64,000 nt of DNA from Pseudomonas fluorescens (GTDB lineage Bacteria; Pseudomonadota; Gammaproteobacteria; Pseudomonadales; Pseudomonadaceae): positions 354,501 through 418,500 of the forward strand of contig NZ_CP078138.1 in NCBI RefSeq assembly GCF_019212185.1. Reading direction: 5' to 3'. Positions 42,928 through 61,411 of the stretch are shown here, one piece after another; position 1 is the first letter of the stretch, and each line of letters opens with the position of its first letter. The notes beneath the pieces are model-generated. The model made no database searches, was not told the origin of the DNA, and saw only the letters and a list, made by a program, of their open reading frames with translations. The position numbers were made by a program, and so were the translations under genes.

Positions 42928-43203
42928 CTACTGAGCCGGCTTCGATTGGGTCAGCACTTTAACCACATCATCAATCACAGCCTTACCCATCGCAGTCAGA
43001 TAATGAGCAGCCCACGCATGACGGTCAGTGTCCTTCGCATAGGCCGCATCCTCGGCGAACGCTTTAGCAAGGCACAGGAAATCTGACGCCTGCGCCAGAG
43101 CTTTGCTAATCGGCACGCCGCTGCTGACATGGAACAGCGGTTCGTCCGGGCAATAGATGCAAGGAGTCGAGCCAATGGTTTTGGCTTCTGGTTGTTCAGT
43201 CAT
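42928..43203 (-). CDS. DUF3077 family small protein
   Basis: The 91-residue product has a Cys-containing N-terminus (PCIYCPDEPLFHVSSG) and a helical C-terminal half typical of the Pseudomonas DUF3077 family. Function is unknown. Its helical half shares a pattern (AS..L, then A, R, and V..VL) with the DUF6124 protein at 60578-60961, and both are preceded by the same structured RNA. Its ATG overlaps the stop of a 31-codon upstream frame (ATGA), so translation is probably coupled to it. Confidence 0.75.
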   Translation of the reverse strand: MTEQPEAKTIGSTPCIYCPDEPLFHVSSGVPISKALAQASDFLCLAKAFAEDAAYAKDTDRHAWAAHYLTAMGKAVIDDVVKVLTQSKPAQ

Positions 43204-43295
43204 TTGCCATCTCCATTAATAGAGATGCATTGAGGGTTCGATTGGGAATCGCGCTGAGGGAGAGGCTGAATTTCGGACGGTTTTGTAGTGCGCAT
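43200..43295 (-). CDS. 31-residue leader ORF coupled to the DUF3077 gene
   Basis: The short frame begins MRTTKPSEIQ and ends NGDGK. It has a good AAGGAGCT site, and its TGA overlaps the DUF3077 ATG. The ribosome-binding site is the one controlled by the upstream structured RNA; at the second locus the same site drives the DUF6124 gene directly. It may be a true peptide or a coupling device. Confidence 0.5.
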   Translation of the reverse strand: MRTTKPSEIQPLPQRDSQSNPQCISINGDGK

Positions 43296-43525
43296 GGTCT
43301 AGCTCCTTGACGTAGAGCTGCCACTTTTTCGTTACCAAGCGAATAGGTGGCAGCTGTGCGCAGGTTGGTAAACCGGGAGTCAAGGAATCCGGCACGCCCG
43401 AAGACGTCCCACGCACAGCCGCCATAACGCAAATTGCGGGCGAAAAAAAACGCCTGCAATGCATATGGGGGCGCCGTTGCGCTCAACTCTCGGGTTACCA
43501 AGCCCGGTCGCTGAATTGGCAGCGA
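43296..43525 (-). ncRNA. Structured regulatory RNA, copy 1 (DUF3077 leader)
   Basis: Read on the minus strand: a hairpin TCGCTG/CAGCGA; a hairpin with CGGGC/CCCG arms carrying the loop tag TTGGTAA; a weak hairpin and eight T; a long stem GGCGGCTGTGCG/CGCACAGCTGCC enclosing a UUCG hairpin and the anti-tag TTACCAA; then AGCTGCCAC/GTGGCAGCT enclosing a second TTGGTAA loop; and AGCTC/GAGCT, which would mask the ribosome-binding site. The last three pairings share strands and cannot all form, so the RNA looks like a switch. The same architecture with a different tag occurs at 60962-61200. Confidence 0.72.
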
Positions 43526-43532
43526 CGGCGCG

Positions 43533-43561
43533 AGGGTACCGTGCAGGCTGATCTCCTGCAA
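43533..43561 (-). promoter_or_regulatory. Promoter of structured RNA copy 1
   Basis: TTGCAG, 17 bases, then TACCCT. The first hairpin of the RNA begins seven bases after the -10. The second RNA locus has a -35/-10 pair at exactly the same spacing and distance, which supports this otherwise weak match. Confidence 0.5.
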
Positions 43562-43594
43562 CCATCGCAAATGGCCTGTAAAAACAACACCCAC

Positions 43595-43643: not shown

Positions 43644-43720
43644 TGGTGCACCAGGCGGGATTCGAACCCACGACCCCTGCCTTCGGAGGGCAGTACTCTA
43701 TCCAGCTGAGCTACTGGTGC
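43644..43720 (-). tRNA. tRNA-Arg (anticodon CCG)
   Basis: The minus strand folds into a complete cloverleaf: acceptor GCACCAG/CTGGTGC, D-loop with AGCTCAGCTGGATAGAG, anticodon stem CTGCC/GGCAG around loop CTCCGAA (anticodon CCG, reading CGG), T-arm GTGGGTTCGAATCCCGC and an encoded CCA. The gene is 77 bases. tRNA genes are common insertion points, and the AT-rich sce7726 operon lies 1.3 kb away. Confidence 0.96.
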
Positions 43721-60450: not shown

Positions 60451-60552
60451 CCCTGGAGCGAGCCTGCTCGCGATGCTCGTCAACGATGACGCGCGGCAGC
60501 CTGAATCCACGCGGCGTCCTCAGGTTCTTCGCGGGCAAGCCCGCTCCAGGGT
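60451..60552. repeat. REPIN downstream of the DUF6124 gene (copy A)
   Basis: Inverted REP arms begin CCCTGGAGCGAGCC and end GCCCGCTCCAGGG. A 93-base core (60455-60547) is identical to the core at 61313-61405, so the DUF6124 gene and its RNA leader lie between two direct copies. Confidence 0.93.
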
Positions 60553-60577: not shown

Positions 60578-60961
60578 TCATTCGCCCAAATGCATAGCCC
60601 TGGGCTGATCAATCCGCTCCAGTGTCTGCTCCACCAACAGAGCGCCTAGCGAAACCATCTGCTGGATCGCCAGCGCCACATGGCGCTGTTTGCCTTCCAG
60701 CTCGAAGGCCAGATCAGTGCTCATGACATCGACCGCCGCCAGGGTTTGCGAGGCGTGGATCAGCAGGGTTTCGGTGTCCTGATTGGGGATCACGCTAAAG
60801 ACATGCGAGGCGGGTTTTTCTGGTGGTTCGGAAGGTCGGGAGGCCGGGCCGAAGTAGTGGTTCAGCGCGCGTTCGGCGGCGTCGTGGAGGGTGCGGGTGT
60901 CGGGGCTGGCGTAGGGGGAAAAGGTGTGGGGTGGCGGGGGATTTTGAGTGATTTTGTGCAT
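60578..60961 (-). CDS. DUF6124 family small protein
   Basis: The 127-residue protein has a Pro-rich N-terminus (TQNPPPPHTF) and a helical C-terminal region (ASQTLAAVDVMSTDLAFELEG) that assigns it to DUF6124, a Pseudomonas family of unknown function. Its helical half resembles that of the DUF3077 protein at 42928-43203. The ribosome-binding site AAGGAGCT is the 3-prime arm of a hairpin in the conserved leader RNA, so translation is probably controlled there. It is bracketed by two near-identical REPINs. Confidence 0.75.
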   Translation of the reverse strand: MHKITQNPPPPHTFSPYASPDTRTLHDAAERALNHYFGPASRPSEPPEKPASHVFSVIPNQDTETLLIHASQTLAAVDVMSTDLAFELEGKQRHVALAIQQMVSLGALLVEQTLERIDQPRAMHLGE

Positions 60962-61200
60962 GGTAAAGCTCCTTGATTGGCGGAGCTGCCACACATCGCC
61001 GCGACGCGATGGAGGGTGGCAGCTGTACGCAGGTTCGCGGACCGGGAATCAAGGAACCCGGCATACCCGAAGGTATCCCGCGCACAGCTGCCATAACGCA
61101 AAGCAGTAGACGATAAAAAAGCGCCAACTCAAAGCGAATGATGGCGCTGTGCGCCTTGATTGATCCGGGCCGCGACGCCCGATCGCTGAATGGGCAGCGA
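60962..61200 (-). ncRNA. Structured regulatory RNA, copy 2 (DUF6124 leader)
   Basis: It has the same element order as copy 1 on the minus strand: hairpin TCGCTG/CAGCGA; hairpin CGGGC/CCCGG with loop tag TCGCGG; terminator-like GCGCCA/TGGCGC followed by six T (61115-61147); stem GGCAGCTGT/ACAGCTGCC enclosing a UUCG hairpin (GGTATGCC side) and the anti-tag CCGCGA; stem AGCTGCCAC/GTGGCAGCT enclosing the second TCGCGG tag; and AGCTCC/GGAGCT masking the ribosome-binding site. Several stem bases differ from copy 1 in compensating pairs. The upstream terminator-like hairpin raises the possibility that the first part is a separate small RNA. Confidence 0.74.
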
Positions 61201-61207
61201 CCGTCGA

Positions 61208-61236
61208 AGCCTAAAGAGACCGCTTCCGAGCGACAA
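61208..61236 (-). promoter_or_regulatory. Promoter of structured RNA copy 2
   Basis: TTGTCG, 17 bases, then TAGGCT; seven bases later the first RNA hairpin begins. Spacing and distance are identical to copy 1. Confidence 0.5.
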
Positions 61237-61309: not shown

Positions 61310-61411
61310 GTAGGAGCGAGCCTGCTCGCGATGCTCGTCAACGATGACGCGCGGCAGCCTGAATCCACGCGGCGTCCTCAGGTTCTTCGCGGGCAAGCCC
61401 GCTCCTACAGG
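61310..61411. repeat. REPIN overlapping the 3-prime end of the MFS gene (copy B)
   Basis: Outer arms read GTAGGAGCGAGCC and GCCCGCTCCTAC. The core is identical to copy A over 93 bases, but the outer bases differ in a paired way (TAGGAGC/GCTCCTA here, CTGGAGC/GCTCCAG in copy A). Confidence 0.93.

Follow-up and report, generated by a model that had tools for sequence, protein, structure and literature searches.

Two loci on the minus strand of the window (the whole 64,000-base stretch of DNA analysed here) carry leaders that match both the C4 antisense RNA (RF01695) and the c4-a1b1 element (RF03163) above the Rfam curated scores. The order of parts along the minus strand is a promoter-like pair, a 5' hairpin, target a1 in a hairpin loop, target b1, a terminator-like hairpin with a T-run, C4, targets a2 and b2, and the gene. 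At locus 1 a 31-aa ORF comes first and is coupled to a DUF3077 gene; at locus 2 a DUF6124 gene follows directly. A preliminary description of this DNA had given the tags discussed below on the plus strand; the Rfam matches place the RNA on the minus strand, and what is a T-run there appears as a run of A on the plus strand (43443–43450 at locus 1, 61115–61120 at locus 2).

At locus 1, with all parts on the minus strand, a −35-like TTGCAG (43556–43561) and a −10-like TACCCT (43533–43538) fit the pattern TTGN3-N17-TAN3T with a spacer of 17. The c4-a1b1 element spans 43487–43539 (57.0 bits, gathering score 46.7). Target a1 (43494–43503) pairs with anti-tag a', and target b1, GAGTTGAGCG (43480–43489), pairs with anti-tag b', partly through G-U. 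When sought beside a1, b1 gave 8 nt of contiguous pairing; in a wider 170-nt search an unrelated site outscored it. The terminator-like hairpin with its T-run occupies 43443–43475 (arms 43470–43475 and 43449–43454, T-run 43450–43443). C4 lies at 43343–43429 (84.2 bits, gathering score 45) and contains the 7-nt a' (43365–43371) and, in its loop, b' (43377–43388). Target a2 (43331–43340) pairs with a', and target b2 (43304–43311), on the Shine-Dalgarno sequence, pairs with b' over 9 nt. The stop of the 31-aa leader ORF (43200–43295) overlaps the start of the next gene as ATGA, and that gene encodes a DUF3077 protein of 91 aa (42928–43203; PF11275, 100.2 bits). A tRNA-Arg (CCG) gene lies directly upstream (43644–43720, minus strand). 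Elsewhere in the window, a gabT RNA motif (RF01738; 45599–45660, plus strand) follows an aldehyde dehydrogenase gene.

Locus 2, likewise on the minus strand, has the same promoter-like pattern (−35-like TTGTCG at 61231–61236, −10-like TAGGCT at 61208–61213, 17-nt spacer) and a c4-a1b1 element at 61162–61214 (53.1 bits, cut-off 46.7). Target a1 (61169–61178) pairs with a', and the 3' end of target b1 (61154–61161) overlaps an arm of a small hairpin, GGCGC, by 2 nt. The terminator-like hairpin and T-run (61115–61148; arms 61142–61148 and 61120–61126) are followed by C4 at 61012–61098 (85.6 bits, cut-off 45), with b' (61046–61057) in its loop and a 7-nt a' (61034–61040). Target a2 (60998–61007) pairs with a'; b2 (60971–60978), at the Shine-Dalgarno sequence, pairs with b' over 11 nt. 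The gene encodes a DUF6124 protein of 127 aa (60578–60961; PF19619, 95.7 bits). At both loci b2 contains AAGG(A), 8–10 nt ahead of the ATG. A perfect 93-nt direct repeat with inverted ends, which we label REPIN-like (60455–60547 and 61313–61405), flanks the locus 2 cassette, and recombination between its copies could remove the cassette.

The promoter-like pattern was present upstream of a1 in 77 of the 119 C4 loci collected below; in 200 mononucleotide shuffles the mean count was 1.0 and the highest 5. A stricter consensus scan found no promoter at either window locus, and a consensus terminator scan, in which only loops of 3–8 were allowed, found none between a1 and C4 at these loci.

The preliminary description had drawn attention to a ten-base tag present twice at each locus, with a complement between the copies. 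Word counts over the window bore this out: GTTACCAAGC occurs exactly twice, at 43331 and 43494, and GCCGCGACGC exactly twice, at 60998 and 61169. The reverse complement of neither was found on the plus strand of the whole window. The locus 1 complement TTGGTAA, at 43365, has two further copies in the window. The locus 2 complement had been given as TCGCGG (61035–61040); that word is present at 61035 and is a common one, with 40 copies in the window, and the true anti-tag is one base longer, paired at 6 of its 7 positions.

Relation to known antisense systems

The two tags of the preliminary description are the C4 target sites a1 and a2, and its anti-tag is a' within C4. Absent from it was a second tag set, in which b' of the C4 loop pairs with b1 and b2. 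At both loci a' and b' are complementary to the a1b1 ahead of C4 and to the a2b2 behind it, with G-U pairs needed for b1 at locus 1 and 6 of 7 positions paired for a' at locus 2.

This tag code is already known: it is that of the C4 system in phages P1 and P7. In P1, icd precedes ant. Points of agreement are the covariance-model match, the placement of a1b1 before and a2b2 after C4, the position of b2 on the ribosome site and, at locus 1, a small ORF overlapping the next gene as icd does before ant. The loci described here differ in being chromosomal, often in dozens of copies, in having mostly DUF3077 or DUF6124 genes behind them (Bro-N in 8 of 87 scanned first ORFs), and, at some loci, in having a terminator-like hairpin after a1b1 and before C4. 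C4 and c4-a1b1 were catalogued by Weinberg and others (2010), in the portion of that paper available (PMC2864571). According to excerpts of two further papers, C4 of P1/P7 blocks the ant mRNA in the region of its ribosome site and is the basis of heteroimmunity (PMC12197685), and Ant of P1 is regulated by C4 and Icd (PMC8201110). An antirepressor as the regulated gene, a trait of P1/P7, was not found at the window loci, where the targets are DUF3077 and DUF6124 genes. The Rfam family is defined by its RNA and not by its target; our claim is therefore limited to a C4 RNA and does not extend to a phage immunity locus.

Two other systems are relatives in layout. Termination in the satellite phage P4 is largely Rho-dependent, whereas an intrinsic hairpin is predicted here in part of the loci. 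The CI RNA of P4 (seqA/seqC) is otherwise alike in that complementary targets lie on both sides of the antisense RNA and pairing leads to transcription termination (PMC4825925, in part). The same excerpts describe IsrK/STnc1160/orf45/anrP of Gifsy-1, which shares the order of parts, a Rho-independent terminator ahead of the processed RNA, and a small ORF preceding the main gene. Gifsy-1 differs in being one locus with an antirepressor-like gene and a short RNA that activates (PMC4825925). Because the tag code belongs to a known antisense system, the two window loci alone are not new.

Pairing specificity and proposed mechanism

We collected 119 C4 loci: 6 from the genome of the window (the own genome), 30 best matches of a genus search (including one each from genomes G097 and G005), and the remainder from G097 and G005. 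Eleven loci (L006, L045, L069, L080, L081, L087, L094, L103, L113, L123, and L124) were dropped because the script failed to place the start site or a1, or because the locus appeared damaged; 108 remained. The mean contiguous pairing of anti-tags with their own targets was 6.8 nt for a2, 6.9 for a1, 9.2 for b2, and 7.3 for b1. In 2,000 permutations of partners, the own-pair scores for a2, a1, b2, and b1 (16.9, 16.9, 21.1, and 17.2) exceeded every permuted value (maxima 12.0, 10.7, 13.1, and 11.8). The slots therefore changed together in homologous loci, as the preliminary description had supposed for its three, and did not vary independently. With the own genome's 5 loci taken alone, permutations attained the observed value, because 5 loci permit few orders.

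Own and foreign pairing were compared for the 89 of 96 distinct tag types that have a 7-nt a'. All seven positions of a' were paired with the own a1 in 81 of 89 types and with the own a2 in 79; with foreign loci having another a', the figures were 5.5% for a1 and 7.0% for a2 of 7,378 pairs. Since a1 was placed by its match to the own a', and the b1 windows were derived from a1, the a1 control is biased toward pairing; the a2 and b2 windows were placed by position alone and are free of that bias, although related loci are not independent. This comparison and the permutations support locus-specific pairing of one anti-tag with two tags, and they argue against a chance repeat, which we rejected.

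With the four slots summed, the own leader was the single best partner at 34 of the 39 loci used from G097, at all 36 from G005, and at all 5 from the own genome. The corresponding numbers were 34, 33, and 5 with a2b2 alone and 32, 30, and 4 with a1b1 alone. Isolation was imperfect: for 5 of 39 loci in G097 some foreign leader scored as well as the own one or better when all four slots were counted. In a cruder wide-window test of all loci, the own leader was uniquely best for a2b2 in 33 of 43 (G097), 34 of 42 (G005), and 5 of 6 (own genome), and for a1b1 in 20 of 43, 23 of 42, and 4 of 6. Distinct b' cores were found in 43 of 43, 40 of 42, and 5 of 6 loci of these genomes, in all 30 examined of 47 matches in G062, and in 29 of 30 examined of 41 matches in G036. 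Within the own genome, locus 2 and L003 have a common b' core and different a'. Because the tags are private, each C4 would act mainly on its own locus.

It is very probable that each locus is a C4-type antisense silencing cassette. A single promoter, represented by the promoter-like pair, would give a leader containing a1, b1, the terminator-like hairpin where present, C4, a2, b2, and the gene. C4 would be released from the leader and act in trans, a' and b' pairing with a2 and b2. Since b2 is the Shine-Dalgarno sequence, this pairing would block downstream translation, of the DUF3077 gene through the coupled 31-aa ORF at locus 1 and of the DUF6124 gene at locus 2. The same C4 should also bind a1 and b1, and in a subset of loci this binding may cause termination ahead of C4, a negative feedback. 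Comparison among loci, at the level of sequence, has shown the family membership, the joint change of the slots, the position of b2 on the ribosome site, the gene linkage, and, in a subset, three shared hairpin arms; the promoter, release of C4, repression in trans, and feedback termination are proposed.

A pseudoknot switch had been offered as an alternative. In such a switch a1b1 and a2b2 would compete for a'b' within one leader by a long-range helix or pseudoknot, with no separate RNA. The predicted whole-leader fold does pair a1 with a' in cis. C4, however, has its own compact consensus structure (24 pairs, derived from 50 loci), its family is described as an antisense RNA in the available part of PMC12197685, and a cis switch leaves the tag differences among loci of one genome unexplained. 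It is unnecessary to explain the data, and we regard it as quite improbable.

The terminator-like hairpin

The preliminary description had also suggested a small RNA that ends at the T-run and acts on its own leader. The anti-tag belongs instead to C4, an RNA of a known family whose position is downstream of the T-run and whose end is elsewhere. A transcript ending at the T-run would contain only a1 and b1 and no anti-tag; on our analysis it could be a by-product or an activator like IsrK.

Between a1 and C4, 26 of the 107 distinct chromosomal leaders and 44 of the 66 distinct viral ones contain a terminator-like hairpin (means after shuffling, 0.8 and 0.75); the viral leaders were chosen by their a1 motif and are not a random sample. 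Three shared arms were present in 19 of the chromosomal and 37 of the viral leaders and in none of the shuffles. In these, one segment serves both as the 5' arm of the terminator and as the 3' arm of a small hairpin; the 5' arm of that small hairpin sits at the end of b1 and overlaps b1 by at least 1 nt in 18 chromosomal and 37 viral leaders. The arms change together (GGCGC/GCGCC/GGCGC, GGCGG/CCGCC/GGCGG, GACGC/GCGTC/GGGCG, and GCGGC/GCCGC/GCGGC). Because b1 overlaps the first arm of the small hairpin, which competes with the intrinsic terminator, C4 binding should favor termination in this subset. When b1 was closed in the folding, the mean predicted terminator probability rose from 0.48 to 0.86 in the 19 chromosomal and from 0.36 to 0.95 in the 37 viral leaders, an effect partly built in because the first arm was sought at b1; when the terminator loop was closed instead there was no rise (0.40 and 0.42). 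These models make C4-driven termination likely in a subset of loci. With the hairpin in just 26 of 107 chromosomal leaders, feedback through an intrinsic terminator is not general.

Closing b1 had no effect at locus 1 (0.91 to 0.90) and a small one at locus 2 (0.82 to 0.96); in equilibrium folding the putative feedback is thus weak at locus 2 and not seen at locus 1. Both loci already prefer the terminator with b1 free, and the translation block is therefore the better supported step there. The same preference bears on another reading, in which the short a1b1 RNA ending at the T-run is itself the active regulator and, like IsrK, binds C4 or the read-through transcript and turns the gene on. 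Gifsy-1 has a like order (IsrK with a terminator, a processed stable RNA, a 45-aa ORF, and an antirepressor-like gene), and the short IsrK binds its read-through transcript and activates translation (PMC4825925, excerpts). The hairpins counted above, more frequent in viral leaders, would suit such an RNA. Most examined chromosomal leaders lack the hairpin, however, and an activator of this kind would supplement C4 silencing rather than replace it. We judge this reading unlikely.

Target genes, distribution, and turnover

A first ORF was found behind 115 of the 119 loci. Of these, 87 were scanned, leaving out 27 of at most 70 aa and L124; 60 matched DUF6124, 8 DUF3077, and 8 Bro-N, and the rest had no Pfam match at 0.01. 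Among the 27 short first ORFs, 17 overlap the following ATG as ATGA. The following ORFs, of which 21 of 24 were scanned (L006, L033, and L094 left out), gave 7 DUF3077 and 2 DUF6124 matches. First ORFs of 52 aa precede varied coupled genes (L014, L029, L204, and others, also on viral contigs), and they are a possible counterpart of P1 icd. Linkage was also seen in the reverse direction: in three genomes, 62 of 74 DUF6124 domains over the cut-off had a C4 at most 400 bases upstream on the same strand and 12 had none, when two below-cut-off rows were left out; random placement gave 0.09. For DUF3077, a C4 lay within 650 bases in 11 of 14 rows over the cut-off; the three without C4 (26–34 bits) fall on DUF6124 domains, and the remaining 11 of 11 have one. 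One Bro-N target, that of L025, matches families of phage antirepressors, an indication of phage origin. The Bro-N-like targets of L116 and L125 open with a sequence resembling the MxKxTPNPP start of DUF6124 proteins, as though this region had been retained and the rest exchanged.

Predicted models of both proteins consist mainly of two long helices (mean pLDDT 72.9 for DUF6124, 83.3 for DUF3077). A PDB fold search with the DUF3077 model found nothing at E ≤ 0.001 (best E 1.9, phage HK446 Rip1), and a sequence search of solved structures found nothing below E 0.1. Among openly licensed PMC papers, no mention of DUF6124 was found, and DUF3077 was mentioned in PMC9630843 alone, in the part of it available. 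For these two families of unknown function, C4 offers a probable regulator and a condition of expression that can be tested.

C4 was detected in 138 of 149 genus genomes at E ≤ 0.001 (137 above the curated score) and in 18 of 274 genomes of a class sample, own genome included. The genus is probably Pseudomonas, the name borne by 9 of 10 matching phage and 11 of 13 matching plasmid records. Per-genome counts in the genus sample are lower bounds (at least 27 at the top). Single-genome searches gave 43 matches in G097, 42 in G005, 47 in G062, and 41 in G036, of which 42, 39, 47, and 41 were over the curated score; the own genome has 6. In the own genome, L006 has a C4 match of 53.3 bits and no clear a1b1, and L012 has an a1b1 match of 38.5 bits and no C4 match; both are probably decayed loci.

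Occupancy of the window sites was judged from flank stretches that reach only 1,500 bases past the match. At the locus 1 flank, from tRNA-Arg to the aldehyde dehydrogenase gene, C4 was present in 3 of 25 stretches, own included, with 21 aligned over the tRNA. One of the three, G021, has a locus 1 ortholog that is 87% identical: a1, a', b', a2, and b2 are unchanged, one base in b1 turns a G-U into an A-U pair with pairing intact, and two single substitutions within a C4 stem leave standard pairs in place. The C4 that G007 carries at this flank is a different one. In three relatives without C4 at the site (L339–L341), homology stops near 43584–43588. At the locus 2 flank C4 was found in 1 of 5 stretches, that of the own genome, and about 115 bases separate the aligned flanks in G017. 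Insertion linked to tRNA genes was rejected as a rule, since a tRNA gene was found within the examined stretch at only 5 of 60 scanned loci (L004, L018, L073, L080, and L265).

The low counts at the two flanks, the tRNA gene beside locus 1, and some broken-looking loci (L094, L107, and L123) would suit dead remnants of phages or satellites that are functionless now. Tags still match in most loci, however, the G021 ortholog retains its pairing, and C4 is present nearly throughout the genus sample; we consider such decay a very unlikely account of the family.

Tags were rarely shared within a genome. Among loci with a target of at least 60 aa, both tags were common to 2 of 2,276 within-genome pairs compared with 33 of 7,454 pairs from different genomes. 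When protein identity was at least 80%, the figures were 1 of 94 and 24 of 184 (Fisher p 0.0006, with pairs non-independent and orthologs included in the between set). The low sharing within genomes fits a pressure against equal tags, without being proof of one, because orthologs raise the between-genome figure and some close paralogs have diverged scaffolds. In several near-identical protein pairs the C4 scaffold had diverged too (0.67 for L095/L118), so that part of the tag separation may reflect gene conversion of ORFs beneath older leaders. In L059/L063, L051/L060, and L091/L098 the scaffold is at 0.90–0.91 and the change is in b' alone.

A search of viral contigs by the a1b1 pattern gave at least 120 stretches, of which 86 were scanned together with 6 phage or plasmid stretches. 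These 92 yielded 78 C4 matches in 76 stretches; 77 were used, one being cut by a contig end. In phage PAJU2, C4 precedes an annotated antirepressor, and in vB_Pae_U10 and phiAH14b it lies between integrase and primase genes. L143 and L137 precede genes that are DUF3077-like by alignment, as do their chromosomal counterparts L074, L046, and L075. Of 51 distinct viral tag pairs, 3 were equal to a tag of the 119 chromosomal loci, and a role of chromosomal C4 in phage immunity through shared tags is unsupported. L257 (phiAH14b) and L015 have an identical leader.

With up to 47 C4 matches per searched genome and their tags separate, family size and separation are direct observations. We tentatively suggest that a phage immunity RNA became a large chromosomal family of C4-locked genes, mostly DUF6124 or DUF3077, in which the tag repertoire may decide which incoming cassettes or elements stay silent and which are turned on. 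As a proposed cause of the separation, cassettes with equal tags in one genome would silence one another. If this is true, a locked gene would be expressed once its DNA enters a cell without a matching C4. Among the matches listed in openly licensed PMC papers we found no account of the chromosomal expansion with private tags, nor of DUF6124/DUF3077 targets or the shared-arm terminator; subscription papers or the supplement of Weinberg and others (2010) may describe the expansion. The scale is what matters: one chromosome can hold some 40 natural antisense pairs that use one scaffold and have hardly any tags in common, a data set for the evolution and separation of RNA pairing specificity and a possible source of orthogonal regulators. 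In G005, L094, L095, and L118 are neighboring cassettes. Two of them have a common tag set, one of these lacking the start region, and the third encodes a near-identical protein under different tags.
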